From: Bacteroidetes bacterium 41-46
Lineage (GTDB): Bacteria; Bacteroidota; Bacteroidia; Bacteroidales; UBA932
Assembly (NCBI GenBank): GCA_001897515.1
Contig: MKTA01000008.1
Coordinates: 1-64,000, forward strand
DNA: 64,000 nt
Direction of reading: 5' to 3'
Shown here: in pieces, positions 17,065 through 45,623 of the stretch
Layout: each line of letters opens with the position of its first letter
How positions within the stretch are numbered: position 1 is the first letter of the stretch
Notes under the pieces: model-generated
Seen by the model: only the letters and a program-made list of their open reading frames with translations
What the model was told of the DNA's origin: nothing
Databases searched by the model: none
Translations under genes and position numbers: made by a program

Positions 17065-18390
17065 TTAGTTGAATAATCTGTAAATATCATTACCAAATGC
17101 AAGGAACATTATCGCAAGTAGCACCAGCATTCCTGCTACCTGTGCATATTCCAGGAATTTATCGCTTGGCCTCCTTCGTGTAACTATTTCATAAAGGAGG
17201 AAGAGTATGTGACCACCGTCAAGGGCTGGAATTGGCAGGAGGTTAACAACAGCCAGCATTATTGACAGCCAAGCTGTTAAATTCCAAAAAATGTGCCAGT
17301 CCCAAGCTGACGGGAATATGTTTCCTATCGCAATAAAGCTACCAACAGATTTATAGGCCTCTGTCTTGGGAGAGAAGATTAACTTCAACTCTTTGATATA
17401 GTTGCTGATTGTAGATACGGCCTTTTTTGCTCCTGCAGGAACTGCTGCAAAAACTGAGTAGTCTGAGGTTGTAATTTTAAAGAATTTGTACAAATCACCA
17501 TCAAGGGCTACCCCTATAAGTCCGTTTTCGTCAACCGCCAGTTTCTTCTCTAAAACAGCCTCTCCCCTGCTAATCAGCACATCAACGGAGTCGCCTTTGT
17601 TAGCCTGAAGAATCGCCTGTATGTCCTGTATGATAAATGCATCTGTTGAGTCAATTCCAATAATTCTGTCTCCGGGCAGAAGGCCGGCAGTAGCGTTTAT
17701 TGAGGAGTCAGGAACAGTCAGAATCTGGAAAGGAACCCTCAGTGAAAACATCCCGGGGGTGTTAAGTACAGCCGGAATGAATACCGGATCAATTGTAAGC
17801 TCCTTGCTCTCGGACCCTCTGATTAATTCAGCCTTTTCAGCCTGATTTCTTGCAAGAATAACCTGAAGCTCGTTGAATTTATCAACTCTCTCTCCGTTAA
17901 ATGAGATTATCCGGTCTCCGTTCTCAAAGCCTATCTCTTTTGCAAGTTCGTTGCACTGAACGCCATATATGGCATCCTCGTTTTTCAGATACTCCTCACC
18001 CCATGTAAAGAGTGTTGCAGAGTAAATAAGGATTGCCAGAATGAAATTGAAGAAAACGCCTCCAAACATAACAAAAAACCTCTGCCAGGCCGGCTTGCTT
18101 CTAAACTCCCATGGCTTTGGCTCTTGTTTGAGCGCCTCTTTGTCCATTGACTCATCTATCATACCGGAAATCTTGCAGTAGCCACCCAATGGCAACCAGC
18201 CAATTCCATATTCAGTATCAGAATTCTTTGGTTTGAATTTAAACAGGGAGAACCATGGATCAAAGAACAGGTAGAACTTCTCAACCCTGATCTTGAATAG
18301 CCTTGCAAAGAAAAAGTGCCCGAACTCGTGGACAAGAACAAGGATTGATAGAGCGAGGACTACCTGGAGAATTTTTATTATTATATCCAT
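17065..18390 (-). CDS. rseP: Site-2 intramembrane zinc protease RseP
   Basis: 441 residues. The first membrane segment holds the catalytic HEFGH (H21, E22, H25). Two PDZ domains follow (GDRIISFNGERVDKFNE near 155-170 and GDRIIGIDSTDAFIIQD near 235-250). The C-terminal membrane part has the third ligand motif NLLPIPALDGGH. RseP-type S2P enzymes cut membrane-anchored anti-sigma factors and remnant signal peptides after a first cleavage. The gene lies 9 bp after dxr, the gene order common in many bacteria. Possible substrates in this window are the anti-sigma-like protein at 31290-31805 and the membrane-linked ModE-WtpA fusion, but that is speculation. Confidence 0.95.
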   Translation of the reverse strand: MDIIIKILQVVLALSILVLVHEFGHFFFARLFKIRVEKFYLFFDPWFSLFKFKPKNSDTEYGIGWLPLGGYCKISGMIDESMDKEALKQEPKPWEFRSKPAWQRFFVMFGGVFFNFILAILIYSATLFTWGEEYLKNEDAIYGVQCNELAKEIGFENGDRIISFNGERVDKFNELQVILARNQAEKAELIRGSESKELTIDPVFIPAVLNTPGMFSLRVPFQILTVPDSSINATAGLLPGDRIIGIDSTDAFIIQDIQAILQANKGDSVDVLISRGEAVLEKKLAVDENGLIGVALDGDLYKFFKITTSDYSVFAAVPAGAKKAVSTISNYIKELKLIFSPKTEAYKSVGSFIAIGNIFPSAWDWHIFWNLTAWLSIMLAVVNLLPIPALDGGHILFLLYEIVTRRRPSDKFLEYAQVAGMLVLLAIMFLAFGNDIYRLFN

Positions 18391-37029: not shown

Positions 37030-39186
37030 TTATTGTAATGGTTTAACTACTTCAATAAGTTCCGGGAGATCCATTCCAATTTTTTTAAGGTGTTCAATTG
37101 TCGGAACCCCGTTTTTGTTCCACCCTCTTCTGTAATACACGGCATCAAGCAACTTTTCGTATTGATCCTCTCTGTAGTCCCTGTGTGCCTTCATCTTCTC
37201 GCTAAGGGACATACGCTCAGGATCAAGCCCCATCTTATCTTTTAGCTGAGCATCGTATCTCTCCTGACGACTAATATACTCCTCCTCTGTAACAGGTCCG
37301 GCGGCTCTGTAGGGCTGCTTATCAAACTCTCTGGTTCCGAATCCAAGCCTGATATTGAGTATTTTCTGAAAGTTATAAACCCTTTCAGACATCTTGATCA
37401 TCTCCTCCTTATCAAAATTCCGGCCTGTAACTGCCTTAAAAATTGTCACATAGTTATCAACGTGTTCAGGCACCTTATTCGGTTCAGGCTGCTCGGCGTT
37501 GTCTGCAGGCTCTACATCGTTCCAGCAAAGTTTGCAGAATCCTGCCAAACCGAACCAGGTGCGGAAATAAGGGAAGTAGTGTAGTGCCTCTGCCTTATTT
37601 TCAAAAGTTGGTATCATGTTGTTTACCATATCCATGAAGATAAGCCATGCTTCATCGTGTTGAGGTCCTTTGTTAGTCATTGCATATCCTCCCTGTTGTG
37701 CAAGCGACTCTTTTGAGAGGTACATAGAGTACTCTAGCCCTTTATTCTCCATTCCAATATCCTCCAGAAACTGTCTGTCTCCCCAGCCATTGTCGGCGAA
37801 CATCTTTTTTAGCCTCATAACTCCAAGCCCTGCAGTTACTCCGAAGCCCTCTCCCCTTGCCATCTGGTGAAGAAGCTCAAGAGAGGCATCGGCATTGCCC
37901 CATGAAAGGTCAACCCCCCCTGTACGTTCTGAATTTAGAATTCCGTTTTCCCAGCACTCCATAAGAAATCCCACAATATTTCCCCAGGTAATCGTACAGA
38001 CTCCGTATGTATCGCAATAGAAGTTCTGTTCAATGATATCTCTAGGGTCAAAAACAGCAATATTGGATCCGAGTGCTGCGGCATTCTCATATTCGGGACC
38101 ATCAACAATAACTTTGCTTCCTTTGTATGGGCCGGTTCTTAGTTCAAAATCATCAACGCCCTTTGCACATGACATATTACAACCTATCCAGCAACCATCA
38201 GGAACACCTTGGGTAAAGAAGGTTTTCCATACCTCCATGTCAATTTTTGGACAATCTTTATGGTCTCCGTATTTGAAATTCATCACAGGCAGAATGTCGT
38301 ATTTTTCAAGGACCCCCATTAGGTGGGCAGTTCCAACTTTACGCATCTGGCACTGAATGTCATCCAGATCGCGCATCTCCTTGTTAAATCTTTTACCTCT
38401 CTCTGTGATTGCCGGCAAGTCCACTACATTGTTGAAATTTCCTGTTACCTTAGGAATTTTAGCTACAATGGCACGAACACCCTTGTGGCGCATAAGAGTT
38501 CCAATTCCTCCCCTGCCTGCCTGTTTAAGTCTTACCTTACCCCTCTTAACATCCCAGAATGTAAAGTTGAGCATCCCGATAAGAGAGTGCTCTGCCGCCT
38601 TTCCGGATGCAACTACAGATACATTGATTTTATCTTTTTCATTATCTGCAAACATATCAAGAAGCTCCTCTCCCAAAAGATGAGAGTCATAACTAAGCTC
38701 CTGCGGGGTTTCAAAAATTTCTACTATGTGATCTATTCCATTGATGTAAATTATGACATCCTTTGGAGAGTTCCCCTGTATCTCCATAGCGTCAAAGCCG
38801 GCAATCTTGAGGTGGGGGCCAAAGTGGCCACCTACGTTGCTGTCAATAATCTTCTCTGTCTGAGGTGAGATTGAGACAACGATTGATTTGCCGGACCCTG
38901 AATACTGAGTAACTCCGCAACATGGACCTCCGGAAATTATAATTTCGTTCTCAGAATCCTGCCATTTTGTGTCAGGTTTAATGGCATCCCACAGCATTCT
39001 CAGACCATACCCCTTTCCTCCGATAAACAGATCTCTTGTCTGAGGAGAGATTTGCCTGGTCTCAATTTTTCCTGTTTCAACATTAACGTAAAGACTTTGG
39101 TCGCTGTATCCACGCTCCATTGGCTTCCAGATATATGGAAAGGAGGCAGTGACTTTTCTTCTGGATTTTATATCCTGATAGTTCAT
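37030..39186 (-). CDS. Aldehyde:ferredoxin oxidoreductase family protein (tungsten/molybdenum bis-pterin)
   Basis: 718 residues. The N-terminal AOR domain has GGKGYGLRMLWD, SGGPCCGVTQYSGSGKS and NVGGHFGPHLKIAGFDAMEIQG, which bind the pterin cofactor. Cysteines likely to hold a [4Fe-4S] cluster are C332, C336, C340 and one of C551/C554 (CKLC); the spacing is C-x3-C-x3-C rather than the C-x2-C-x3-C of the Pyrococcus enzyme. At about 700 residues it resembles the YdhV-like branch more than the ~600-residue archaeal AORs. It would oxidise aldehydes or reduce acids with ferredoxin. It is divergent from a ThiF/ThiS-like pair that could serve cofactor sulfur transfer. Confidence 0.9.
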   Translation of the reverse strand: MNYQDIKSRRKVTASFPYIWKPMERGYSDQSLYVNVETGKIETRQISPQTRDLFIGGKGYGLRMLWDAIKPDTKWQDSENEIIISGGPCCGVTQYSGSGKSIVVSISPQTEKIIDSNVGGHFGPHLKIAGFDAMEIQGNSPKDVIIYINGIDHIVEIFETPQELSYDSHLLGEELLDMFADNEKDKINVSVVASGKAAEHSLIGMLNFTFWDVKRGKVRLKQAGRGGIGTLMRHKGVRAIVAKIPKVTGNFNNVVDLPAITERGKRFNKEMRDLDDIQCQMRKVGTAHLMGVLEKYDILPVMNFKYGDHKDCPKIDMEVWKTFFTQGVPDGCWIGCNMSCAKGVDDFELRTGPYKGSKVIVDGPEYENAAALGSNIAVFDPRDIIEQNFYCDTYGVCTITWGNIVGFLMECWENGILNSERTGGVDLSWGNADASLELLHQMARGEGFGVTAGLGVMRLKKMFADNGWGDRQFLEDIGMENKGLEYSMYLSKESLAQQGGYAMTNKGPQHDEAWLIFMDMVNNMIPTFENKAEALHYFPYFRTWFGLAGFCKLCWNDVEPADNAEQPEPNKVPEHVDNYVTIFKAVTGRNFDKEEMIKMSERVYNFQKILNIRLGFGTREFDKQPYRAAGPVTEEEYISRQERYDAQLKDKMGLDPERMSLSEKMKAHRDYREDQYEKLLDAVYYRRGWNKNGVPTIEHLKKIGMDLPELIEVVKPLQ

Positions 39187-41203: not shown

Positions 41204-42259
41204 ATGAGAACAAAAACAATACTGGTGCTGATAGCACTTTTTTTATCGCTGGCGAGTTGCAAATATTTGCATATTGATGGTTATTCAGGGTCAACTTTAA
41301 TTTGGGAATCAGGGGCTAATAATTACTTCAACACCGAGTCCCCCTCATTACTTGATTTGGTATCAGAAATAATAATAACAGGTGAAACTGATGGCGAACA
41401 GAAAGTTTCTTTGGAAAACATGCCCTGGCATTCGGTTACTCTAAGAGAGGTTGTGATGGATGGTGACTCTGCAAAATTTCTGGGAACCTTCAGATATGAC
41501 GGGGTTGCGCTATGTGATATATTAAGCTCAGTTAAGATTGATAAAGAGTCCAAAGAAGATTTTTACCCACCGGTTGATCTATATGTTGAGGTGTGGAACG
41601 ATGCCGGGGAGTTCGCAACATTCAGCTGGGGTGAGATTATTTACTCAAACGATGTTTACAATATTATTATAGCAAAGGCTGCAACAAGAGTTGTCCCGGG
41701 TAAGACCGGAGAGAAATGGGAGATTCCTCAATCAGGGAAAATTGTAGTTGGAACAGACCTCTTTGCTGAGAGAGGTATATCAAATCCAACTAAAATTGTA
41801 GTGAAATCATTAAAGGGTAACTTCAAGGTTGACAGAGACCCTGAGAAATTCTACTCAGAGAAACTAGAGATAATAGATGGCAATAATATTGTTGCTGACT
41901 TCTCTTCTATACCTGTGAATCTCCCTAAACTTGACAGAAGAACAATCTATTATGGTCACGGCATGGGGTATAAGGGTGTAAGAACCTTTAGTGGAGTAAG
42001 GATTGACGGTTTGCTCAGGAGTCTGCTGCCTTCAACAAAAGAGGATCTTAGAACAGGGCTGATATGTATAGAGGCTGTTGACGGATACAGAGCCTCTTTC
42101 TCCCTTTCTGAGCTTATAAACAGAGTTGATGGAGCCGAACCCCTTCTAATGTACGGTGAGTCAGGAGAAAAGGGGAGAGAGTCGTTCTCAGTATATGCAG
42201 ACAGTGATATGTTTGCAGACAGATCTGTTAAAGGTGTGAACAAGATTACTCTCTACTAA
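41204..42259 (+). CDS. Lipoprotein with two sulfite-oxidase-fold-like repeats
   Basis: 351 residues with a lipoprotein signal (FLSLASC, about C19). Two repeats resemble the pterin-binding domain of the sulfite oxidase fold: the first around 75-165 (SVTLREVVMDGDSAKFLGTFRYDGVALCDIL), the second around 250-350 (FSGVRIDGLLRSLL.., EAVDGYRASFSLSELINRV). No convincing metal-ligand cysteine is seen, so it may bind ligand or partner without catalysis. The likeness is by eye and moderate. It is the first gene of the operon, 1 bp before the ModE-WtpA fusion, which ties it to molybdenum or tungsten. Confidence 0.6.
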   Translation: MRTKTILVLIALFLSLASCKYLHIDGYSGSTLIWESGANNYFNTESPSLLDLVSEIIITGETDGEQKVSLENMPWHSVTLREVVMDGDSAKFLGTFRYDGVALCDILSSVKIDKESKEDFYPPVDLYVEVWNDAGEFATFSWGEIIYSNDVYNIIIAKAATRVVPGKTGEKWEIPQSGKIVVGTDLFAERGISNPTKIVVKSLKGNFKVDRDPEKFYSEKLEIIDGNNIVADFSSIPVNLPKLDRRTIYYGHGMGYKGVRTFSGVRIDGLLRSLLPSTKEDLRTGLICIEAVDGYRASFSLSELINRVDGAEPLLMYGESGEKGRESFSVYADSDMFADRSVKGVNKITLY

Positions 42260-42260
42260 T

Positions 42261-43517
42261 ATGGCTGGCAACAAAGGGACAAAATATTACGATATATTCC
42301 TGGATTACCGGCTATGGCTTACCAAAAGAGGGAGTGGTGAGGTGTTGGGTCATGAGCAGTTTCAAATTCTTCAAAAGGTTGCTGAGGGAAATTCTCTTCA
42401 TTATGCGGCAGATAGTCTGGGTATGAGCTACAGAAAGGTCTGGGACAGAATAAGAAACTCTGAAAAAGAGCTCGGCTTTCCCCTGATTGAGACATTCAGA
42501 GGGGGAAAGGAGGGGGGTGGTACCAGGCTCTCTGAAGACGGAAGAAGACTGTTGGAGTCCTATACTGTGCTGAGGAGCGATATTGACAATCTCATTAAAG
42601 AGAGGGTAAAGAGCTTCTTCCATTCAGTCAATAAGTTGGTAGTTATTGCGCTGACTCTCGCAGTGGCTCTCTCATGCAAGGGCAGGGGCTCGGTTACAAA
42701 CTCGGATGACAATGAGTTAAAGGGAGATTTAATAATTTTTCATGCAGGATCACTCTCAAAGCCTTTTAAGGTTATTGCAGACTCCTTTATAAGAATTCAT
42801 CCAAATGTCAATATATTATCGGAGGCATCAGGAAGTATTGATGCAGCCAGAAAAATAACGGAGCTGGGAAGAGATTGTGATATTATGGCCTCTGCAGATT
42901 ATACCGTAATAGATAAACTTTTAATCCCTGATTATGCATCAGACAACATAAAATTTGCAGCAAATGAGATGGCTGTAGTCTTTAATGAGAAGTCAAGGTT
43001 CAGTAATGAGATTAATTCATATAACTGGAGAGAGGTGCTTTCAAGAAAAGATGTCACATATGGAAGATCAGACCCTAATGCTGACCCCTGCGGATACAGG
43101 ACAATCATCATGTTACAGCTTGCAGGTGCAGATACAAAGCAATTTTTGGAGAAGGACAAGCGCTTTGTAAGGCCTAAAGAGGTGGATCTGCTGGCCTTAT
43201 TAGACGTAAACGCAGTGGACTACATCTTTCTTTATAAATCAGTAGCTGTTCAGCATGGATTAAGGTACATAGAGCTGAATGATTCAGTTAATCTGTCAAA
43301 CCCTGAACTCAATGAATGGTACTATAATGCAGAGGTGAAGGTAAGAGGCTCAGCACCTGGAGATACAATTTTAATAAAGGGTGAGGCTATGGTCTATGGT
43401 GTTACAATTTTGAAAAACTCACCCAATAAAATAGCAGCAGAAGAATTTGTAAAATTTCTTTTGTCGGAGGATGGGGGAAGGAGAATTCTGTCACAGATGG
43501 GACAGTCGCCAGTGTAA
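42261..43517 (+). CDS. ModE-type DNA-binding domain fused to WtpA-type tungstate/molybdate-binding protein
   Basis: 418 residues in one open frame. Residues 12-115 are a ModE/LysR-type winged helix (LHYAADSLGMSYRKVWDRI, then GGGTRLSEDGRRLLESY). Residues 125-139 (KLVVIALTLAVALSC) form a hydrophobic segment that also reads as a lipoprotein signal ending at C139. From 155 on, the protein matches WtpA/ModA-type oxyanion-binding proteins: LIIFHAGSLSKPF, ASGSIDAARKITELGRDCDIMASADYTVIDKL and SDPNADPCGYR. No in-frame ATG precedes the second part; only a TTG at 42636 could allow separate initiation. The layout places a DNA-binding domain in the cytosol and a ligand sensor outside, as in ToxR-type one-component regulators. 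No ABC permease is nearby. Confidence 0.85.
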   Translation: MAGNKGTKYYDIFLDYRLWLTKRGSGEVLGHEQFQILQKVAEGNSLHYAADSLGMSYRKVWDRIRNSEKELGFPLIETFRGGKEGGGTRLSEDGRRLLESYTVLRSDIDNLIKERVKSFFHSVNKLVVIALTLAVALSCKGRGSVTNSDDNELKGDLIIFHAGSLSKPFKVIADSFIRIHPNVNILSEASGSIDAARKITELGRDCDIMASADYTVIDKLLIPDYASDNIKFAANEMAVVFNEKSRFSNEINSYNWREVLSRKDVTYGRSDPNADPCGYRTIIMLQLAGADTKQFLEKDKRFVRPKEVDLLALLDVNAVDYIFLYKSVAVQHGLRYIELNDSVNLSNPELNEWYYNAEVKVRGSAPGDTILIKGEAMVYGVTILKNSPNKIAAEEFVKFLLSEDGGRRILSQMGQSPV

Positions 43518-43544: not shown

Positions 43545-45623
43545 ATGAACTCAAAAAATCTGGGGTTAGCCCTGCTTTTTATGGCCAGCCCTCTGATGCA
43601 TCTTAATGCACAGGAGGGCGATACGGCAAAAATGTACAATATTAAGGATGTTGTTGTAAGTGCAACAAAAACCGGAAGGGAGATACTTCAGACTCCCGTT
43701 CGAATTTCAAACATTCCGGTTCAGAGCATAAGGTCTGCATCTGTAATGAACTCTGATGATATCCTAAAGGGGGTTTCAGGTCTGTTAGTAACAAGGAATA
43801 TGGGTATTTTTGACAAGCATGCTACTGTCTCAGCCAGAGGTGTAGGCAAAGAGCAGGCAAGAACCCTGATTCTTGTAGATGGAATTCCAATTAACAAACT
43901 TTCTACCGGCAGCGCCAACTTTGGCATGATTAATCAGGCTGTTCTTGAGAGAGTTGAGGTTGTAAAAGGCCCAAATTCAAACATCTTTGGCGGAAACGCA
44001 ATGGGCGGTTCGGTAAACTATATCTCAAAAGATGTGAGAAATGGATTCAGAACGCATCTTCAGACAGAGTATGCCTCTTTCAACACCATTGGAACTAGAA
44101 TTTCAACCACATACGGGAATCGTGGATTCTTTGCCGGGGTTAGCGGATTTTTCAGAAAGAGCGATGGTTACAACCCGTCTGAAACTATTGATTCAACAAC
44201 AATCAATATGTCTCTTGATGAAAAAAACGGTGGAATAATAGTAGGATACCGGGGTGACAAATTTGGTACCATTAAGGCTGAGCTAAACTATACAGATGCA
44301 TTGCGGGGAAAAGGGGAGAGACTCTTCTCTGCCGGAGGTGTTATAGATGCAGTAAACCACTATGTTAACAAAAACTACAGAGTGACTTGGAACAAAGTTT
44401 CAGGAAACTCCTCTATGAGCGCAACAGGTTATTTATCTACTGAGGATTATTCTGAAATTAAATGGAAGGGTACAGACATTTTTGATGTAATTGTAGATAG
44501 AAAAGATTACGGAGCCTGGCTTTCTTATTCATATTCAGGAATTAAGAATAATACTGTCTCTGCAGGCTTTGAGTTTAAAGGGGGATCAGTTGATGGAAAA
44601 GACATATACAGGACATCTACCGACAGAGTCATAAACAGGGGAGAGAGCAATTCTGCCTCAATATTTATACAGGACGAGATTCTTCTCGCCGGGGGAAGGC
44701 TGCTTATACTACCATCTTTAAGAGGAGAGATGGTTTGGATTAGAGACGGAGGATTCTACATTGAAGGGGGACCCGCTATTACAAATTTTCTGAAGCCATA
44801 TACAGGAGATCTTGGTAACTCATCATGGAGTTCATTAATTCCTAAACTGGCAGCAAGATGGTCTCTTGGGGAGAGGAGCAGAATTTATGCTTCTGCATCA
44901 AGAGGATTCAGGCCGGGTTCACTTGAGGATATGACAAGAACAGGAAGCATAAGCGGAGGAGTTATTCTTGCAAATACATCATTAAGGCCAGAATATATAA
45001 ATACGTATGAGGCTGGCGGAGACTTCAGAATTGCTGAGAATCTTTACCTCTCTCCCTCTGTTTACTACTCTCTGGGAACAGATTTCCATTACGCAGTAAA
45101 TACCGGAGAGACAATAAGAATAGGTAATAAAAACAGACCTCTAATGAGTATGCAAAATGTGGGCAAGGTTGAGATTGCAGGAGCAGAGGCAGATTTAAAC
45201 TACTCTCCGGCAGTGGGACTTGATCTAAGCCTCAACTACACATTTACAAACTCAAAAATTGTTGAATATGACATTAACCCTGCAGCCGGTAGTACAGATA
45301 TCTCCGGGAAGTATCTTACATATACACCAAAGCATATGATTAATGGCTCCTTAACATGGAGAAACAGATTTGTAAGCCTTAACGCAATCTACAGGTACAC
45401 TAGCAGCCAGTTTATGAACTCTCTTAATCTGCCAAATGATGACAGAGGTGTAAATGTTATACCGGCTCTTAATTATGTTGACTTAAAGGTGTGGAGAGGA
45501 ATTGGAAGCCATCTTGTTGTAAGTGCGGGCGCAACAAATCTCTTTAATCAGAGGTATGTTGATTCATCAGGAATGCTCTCACTGGGTAGATTCCTATTCC
45601 TGCAACTGACTGTTAATATATGA
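43545..45623 (+). CDS. TonB-dependent receptor of the Mo/W-related operon
   Basis: 692 residues. A signal peptide (..LMHLNAQ) is followed by a plug domain (about 30-155: NIKDVVVSATKTGREILQ, RGVGKEQARTLILVDGIPIN, VVKGPNSNIFGGNAMGGSVNYIS) and a beta-barrel with the C-terminal ..GRFLFLQLTVNI. It lies 27 bp after the ModE-WtpA fusion gene in the same orientation. The substrate is unknown; the context suggests molybdate, tungstate or a chelate of either. Ordinary siderophore or cobalamin receptors look the same at this level. Confidence 0.87.
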   Translation: MNSKNLGLALLFMASPLMHLNAQEGDTAKMYNIKDVVVSATKTGREILQTPVRISNIPVQSIRSASVMNSDDILKGVSGLLVTRNMGIFDKHATVSARGVGKEQARTLILVDGIPINKLSTGSANFGMINQAVLERVEVVKGPNSNIFGGNAMGGSVNYISKDVRNGFRTHLQTEYASFNTIGTRISTTYGNRGFFAGVSGFFRKSDGYNPSETIDSTTINMSLDEKNGGIIVGYRGDKFGTIKAELNYTDALRGKGERLFSAGGVIDAVNHYVNKNYRVTWNKVSGNSSMSATGYLSTEDYSEIKWKGTDIFDVIVDRKDYGAWLSYSYSGIKNNTVSAGFEFKGGSVDGKDIYRTSTDRVINRGESNSASIFIQDEILLAGGRLLILPSLRGEMVWIRDGGFYIEGGPAITNFLKPYTGDLGNSSWSSLIPKLAARWSLGERSRIYASASRGFRPGSLEDMTRTGSISGGVILANTSLRPEYINTYEAGGDFRIAENLYLSPSVYYSLGTDFHYAVNTGETIRIGNKNRPLMSMQNVGKVEIAGAEADLNYSPAVGLDLSLNYTFTNSKIVEYDINPAAGSTDISGKYLTYTPKHMINGSLTWRNRFVSLNAIYRYTSSQFMNSLNLPNDDRGVNVIPALNYVDLKVWRGIGSHLVVSAGATNLFNQRYVDSSGMLSLGRFLFLQLTVNI

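Follow-up and report, generated by a model that had tools for sequence, protein, structure and literature searches.

A single reading frame joining a ModE-type DNA-binding domain to a WtpA-type receptor in a genus of Bacteroidales, a fusion that seems to have arisen twice

Results

The frame at 42261-43517 (+) of the 64,000-nucleotide stretch of DNA analysed here (the window) is genuine and conserved, a fusion of known parts that has apparently come about more than once. The predicted chain opens with a winged helix of the ModE type, runs through a hydrophobic stretch that closes with Cys139 and goes on into a complete receptor of the WtpA type. The gene is a single open reading frame with an ATG start, 418 amino acids and zero internal stops, and it comes from a 34-contig draft genome that is 93% complete. 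The N-terminal half (residues 1-124; 42261..42632, +) matched Pfam HTH_1 at residues 32-95 with 38.3 bits (cut-off 26.6) and, under the cut-off of 98.5, NCBIfam ModE_repress TIGR00637 (66.4 bits; 66-69 over searches); by sequence alignment its structural relatives are 2ijl and E. coli ModE (1b9m/1o7l). The junction (residues 125-139; 42633..42677, +) has the highest 15-residue hydropathy in the protein and consists of a hydrophobic segment at residues 126-138 followed by Cys139, resembling a lipoprotein-type signal. The C-terminal half (residues 140-418; 42678..43514, +) matched Pfam SBP_bac_11 at residues 159-411 (99.1 bits; cut-off 25) and NCBIfam tungstate_WtpA TIGR03730 (290.7 bits, above the cut-off of 242.75), fell slightly short of the cut-off of 355 for a second WtpA model (NF003196, 334.7 bits), and has the archaeal WtpA/ModA proteins of PDB 3cg1, 3cij and 2onk as structural relatives. 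The ORF, Pfam and NCBIfam results bear out the preliminary description of this DNA, which had read here one uninterrupted frame with a ModE winged helix and a WtpA domain. When the fusion and the lipoprotein-like protein encoded upstream were modelled from two-row alignments, the pLDDT values were 44 and 32, too low for use.

The predicted metal pocket of the receptor half is retained. Through the 3cg1 alignment, D275 and E307 correspond to Asp160 and Glu218 in the WtpA of P. furiosus, the two residues that PMC10221389 describes as the tungsten-binding carboxylates that complete octahedral binding. Both residues are kept and invariant in 21 aligned sequences (20/22 WtpA proteins of the genus plus that of G424), in keeping with the earlier claim of a complete oxyanion-binding domain. 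The fusion protein is the sole SBP_bac_11 match in the source genome, which has two BPD_transp_1 permeases, on contigs 15 and 19, and none on the window's contig. The contig 19 permease is WtpB-like (281 bits to its best NCBIfam match; equivalog cut-off 340) and the adjoining ATPase is short and WtpC-like (209 bits to its best NCBIfam match; equivalog cut-off 440). The absence of a nearby permease, pointed out in the preliminary description, is thus true of the window and its contig, while the genome at large has a WtpB/WtpC-like pair. Since this pair is encoded elsewhere and no second SBP_bac_11 match was found, a receptor role is likely, and the fusion protein most likely still acts as the receptor of the WtpB/WtpC transporter; this comes close to the arrangement that had been set against the original reading as a sensor, namely a permease elsewhere using the protein as an ordinary receptor. 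Among the 22 wtpA-bearing genomes of the genus, 20 gave a strong WtpB match, the misses being G547 (84% complete) and G596 (73% complete), and the three genomes of the genus without wtpA gave either no WtpB match (two genomes) or a weak partial match at 20% identity (G561). The short WtpC-like ATPase at L003:2067-2702 (211 aa) matches only the first 210 of 347 WtpC positions. At L095 (G000 contig 23:52748-52822) and L094 (G539 contig 124), residues 1-25 of the WtpB frame as listed are matched a second time with 84-92% identity; these short matches are probably copies of a DNA repeat that precedes the real wtpB start.

A search of 25 genomes of the genus, 22 of them with a match, found the fusion in five (the source genome, G539, G547, G464 and G601), separate neighbouring modE and wtpA genes in five (G606, G476, G435, G596 and G591, the last known from the match table only, with a wtpA match that covers part of the gene) and no ModE in 15. 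The same architecture, which the preliminary description had proposed to look for in other Bacteroidota, is therefore present in four further genomes of the genus, each with the same unbroken frame. G464 is a single contig and the other fusion carriers are drafts; G547 and G464 are nearly identical at the locus (branch length 0.004), leaving four distinct fused sequences, and L052, a Bacteroidales MAG that is probably the same genome as G539, was counted once. ModE is present in 10/25 genomes, one copy each, and 12/22 wtpA-bearing genomes gave no ModE match. Outside the genus we examined overlapping samples, all within the one phylum: no fusion was found outside the genus among the matches listed, best first, for the order (393 genomes, 176 with a match), nor in the phylum sample (395 genomes, 109 with a match) or the class sample (395 genomes, 65 with a match), and in the family sample (398 genomes, 38 with a match) every fusion belongs to the genus. 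ModE was a separate gene just upstream of wtpA in 14 of the 33 best-scoring order and phylum loci (with short flanks; one locus, L011, is a genus member). Since the parts are separate outside the genus and in 5/10 of its ModE-bearing genomes, the fusion is by this comparison a local innovation and not the normal form of the family; homologues are thus two genes outside the genus and in half of the ModE-bearing genomes within it, and one gene in the other half. In G606 modE and wtpA lie in the same frame, parted by a single stop with 30 bases from stop to start, so that the step to a fusion is short, and in G435 and G596 the two genes overlap by four bases.

The fusion seems to have arisen twice within the genus. 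In a tree of six neighbouring proteins from 21 genomes (four are less than half filled, and G520 is 30% filled), the four close fusions formed one clade (100/100) and G601 stood apart beside the ModE-less G520 (100/100), and a single clade of all five fusions was rejected on this tree (p-AU 5e-96). The tree of WtpA only, in which 6 of 18 inner branches are open, needs three changes, of which its starred branches force at least two; though weakly resolved, this tree also joins G601 to G520 through a starred branch. The ModE-only tree is compatible with a single origin (12% of bootstrap trees), and the junctions differ between the four-fusion clade and G601. One old fusion that was later split again in several lineages would be a less economical account. 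In pairs with at least one fused gene, the ModE half had a pN/pS of 0.14-0.39 and the WtpA half one of 0.19-0.32, with pS of 0.70-0.95, ratios that are rough because synonymous sites are near saturation; the set comprised four fused and three split genomes, leaving out G547 and G596 (near copies) and G591 (partial). Comparisons of one fused gene with another gave the same two pN/pS ranges with pS of 0.70-0.87. Both halves thus show purifying selection. Between the window and G539, identity is 81% in the ModE half and 73% in the WtpA half.

The N-terminal half shares with the ModE N-terminal domain (1b9m/1o7l; 2ijl) the winged helix, an SYRKxW helix and an RGGK-GG wing, and differs from ModE in its score below the ModE_repress cut-off and in being joined to a receptor that would be exported. 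E. coli-type ModE also has a molybdate-binding Mop/TOBE domain; no Pfam match to this sensing domain was found in the 418-aa protein, and TOBE was matched in 0/25 genomes of the genus, in a search whose controls matched in 12/14 genomes. Because ModE in this genus has no Mop/TOBE sensor, the joined WtpA half is an attractive candidate sensor, although split-gene relatives have a ModE that would work without any join to WtpA. Over seven distinct ModE sequences, 59/124 positions are invariant, including 10/17 in the wing and 7/23 in the helix-turn-helix versus 52/101 in the remainder (borders of both elements set by eye). The lipoprotein gene and wtpB each have a divergent promoter, and by eye, without statistics, no ModE-specific operator was seen in either. 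Inverted repeats in these two promoters were considered as ModE sites and rejected, as they resemble facing promoter boxes and are also present in genomes without ModE.

In most of the loci fetched from the genus (contig ends truncate some, and different genes occur in some), the gene order is aldehyde:ferredoxin oxidoreductase, ThiF-like adenylyltransferase, a protein whose sequence suggests a DAHP synthase/chorismate mutase, a 351-aa lipoprotein-like protein, ModE where present, and WtpA. In the window the oxidoreductase gene (37030..39186, -; AFOR_N + AFOR_C) encodes a member of a tungsten-type enzyme family, and this neighbourhood may be read as agreeing with tungsten uptake for the oxidoreductase. 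The 351-aa lipoprotein-like protein (41204..42259, +), which belongs to no assigned family and is a recurrent neighbour of WtpA, adjoins wtp genes in other Bacteroidales families too (L009, L027, L029 and L030) and is possibly a degenerate molybdopterin-oxidoreductase fold: 5/12 members matched Oxidored_molyb with a best E of 5e-4, the window member scoring 14.8 bits (cut-off 24), and a search of the PDB with a 12-row profile gave no relative even at an E of 10. By eye, the protein looks as if it might hold two degenerate copies of an Oxidored_molyb-like domain. Directly downstream of the fusion lies a TonB-dependent receptor gene (43545..45623, +; Pfam Plug and barrel), and a TonB-dependent receptor is found directly downstream of wtpA in 7/9 ModE-bearing loci of the genus compared to 0/10 ModE-lacking loci with visible downstream DNA; the receptor might be the outer-membrane importer for tungstate, molybdate or a chelate. 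Near the locus in two relatives is a gene for a protein of ~820 aa with a weak MG2 match (L059:9229-11676 and L057:8293-10776), and similar-sized frames without a counterpart in the window lie near the locus in several others.

The most hydrophobic stretch of the protein sits at the junction in all five fusions and is followed each time by Ser-Cys-x-Gly-Arg-Gly-Ser, with the Cys at residue 139 in four of them and at residue 143 in G601. The hydrophobic run is ~14 residues long in the fusions, as it is in several and perhaps most of the unfused WtpA signals of the genus (16 in G435; all lengths by eye), and its sequence drifts while the Cys is kept in 5/5. A usual lipobox has L, V or I at position -3; here three of the four distinct sequences of the fusion have A, A and T instead, and the unfused relatives are likewise loose at this position. 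Of the lipoprotein-like segment described earlier, then, the closing Cys is conserved in the five fusions and position -3 is off the lipobox in three of four sequences; similarly, when the linker was compared as had been advised, the Cys and its following motif proved conserved and the hydrophobic run did not. The signal-like length and the invariant Cys suggest cutting by signal peptidase II, which would yield a lipoprotein plus a ModE that keeps a hydrophobic tail. The three fusion-bearing genomes searched all have LspA and one M50 protease, and the M50 gene of the source genome lies inside the window (17065..18390, -; PF02163 with 188 bits at contig 17113-18363), its RseP-type intramembrane protease being a candidate for later processing. 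In three other genomes (G487, G573 and G424; two of the genus, one of another genus), WtpA is instead fused to the 351-aa lipoprotein in frames of 631-633 aa (L063:5951-7846, L061:860-2755 and L070:2510-4411), and there WtpA lacks a signal and Cys of its own; because G487 is a close relative of G573, the three genomes count as two events. This loss, where the lipoprotein signal could export both parts, supports an export role for the junction segment in the ModE-WtpA fusions.

Discussion

We propose, at roughly even chances, that the gene encodes a two-part precursor that is parted at Cys139 and whose receptor half serves WtpB/WtpC. The single chain would place a ModE-type winged helix in the cytosol, continue with a lipoprotein signal in its interior and end in an exported receptor of the WtpA type. 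Signal peptidase II would most likely cut before Cys139. One product would be the mature lipoprotein receptor; the other, a small regulator of the ModE type, would keep a hydrophobic tail and either stay at the membrane or be released by another protease. The receptor half, lipidated at Cys139, would serve the WtpB/WtpC encoded elsewhere in the genome and feed tungsten enzymes such as the neighbouring aldehyde:ferredoxin oxidoreductase. We infer export, lipidation, cleavage, DNA binding, regulation and the oxidoreductase link from the features of the sequence. Counted against this precursor are the mismatch at position -3 of the lipobox, the helix-turn-helix, less conserved than the rest of the ModE half, and the absence of a ModE operator in the two promoters read by eye, and a folded domain of 124 residues ahead of a lipoprotein signal is unusual.

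The reading first put forward, an uncut ToxR-like one-component sensor in which external tungstate alters DNA binding by the inner winged helix, possibly while also serving WtpB/C, seems to us possible but not likely. A DNA-binding domain, a single hydrophobic segment and a ligand-binding domain stand in one frame in five genomes, the WtpA half could supply the sensor that ModE here lacks, and membrane transcription regulators are common in Bacteroidota according to PMC10269533; against it, ModE is a separate gene in half of the ModE-bearing genomes of the genus, and the run is of signal-peptide length and the Cys is kept, though needless in an uncut protein, which together favour cleavage at C139. 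It is unlikely that the halves are made as separate products, with an internal start in the ModE half giving WtpA an ordinary signal and the fused product being minor or serving ModE alone. Every fusion genome does have in-frame start candidates (TTG126 or GTG103 in the window; ATG125 in G464 and G547; ATG108 in G539; ATG108 and TTG129 in G601), and modE and wtpA overlap or lie close in split relatives. However, no start codon stands at a shared place across the fusions, G539 has zero in-frame ATG, GTG or TTG between codon 109 and codon 150, and an intergenic stop is absent throughout a clade with near-saturated synonymous sites.

That the ModE half is a passenger, a mere long leader on a normally working receptor, appears very improbable: the many wtpA-bearing genomes that manage without ModE and the variable helix-turn-helix would fit it, but the ModE half is constrained like the WtpA half in fused pairs, as the comparison of the window with G539 illustrates, and the wing is well kept. 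The least credible account is a join made in assembly or sequencing. The draft state of the source genome and of all fused genomes but one left room for it, but three further genomes, one of them a single contig, have the same junction at 73-75% identity, and a different junction occurs in G601; an assembly join is ruled out by this recurrence in other species.

The predicted precursor can be set beside known systems. From the WtpA of archaeal-type WtpABC, which it resembles in scoring above the TIGR03730 cut-off, in both carboxylates and in having WtpB/WtpC-like genes in its genome, it departs by the 124-residue DNA-binding domain before the signal and by a gene that lies apart from wtpBC. 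Like the ToxR/CadC-like and other membrane regulators, it joins a DNA-binding domain to another domain through one hydrophobic segment in a single chain; unlike ToxR and CadC, its helix is of the ModE/LysR (HTH_1) type and not the OmpR-type Trans_reg_C, a lipoprotein-type Cys closes the segment, and the outer domain is a transporter's receptor. In the Bradyrhizobium fbcH cytochrome b/c1 polyprotein, a fused precursor is cut at an internal signal sequence so that one gene gives two proteins; in that case the two are both respiratory subunits, parted by signal peptidase I, whereas the present frame would give a regulator and a lipoprotein through a predicted internal cut. A literature search of titles and abstract openings turned up no account of ModE fused to WtpA or to ModA, and PMC6147048, which covers molybdoprotein fusions, does not name a ModE-WtpA fusion in the portion of its text examined.

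Taken further, and as a tentative proposal that we consider possible but not probable, a tungstate 'transceptor' would have evolved twice in one genus, serving as WtpBC receptor and membrane-held regulator and signalling via ligand and the cut at Cys139, then possibly via M50. Here the receptor of a metal importer and a ModE-type regulator are united in one chain that probably crosses the membrane and seemingly evolved twice. The arrangement would be a case of a lipoprotein signal inside a protein, after a folded cytosolic domain, and it opens to direct test how tungsten or molybdenum may be sensed by a ModE without a Mop domain.
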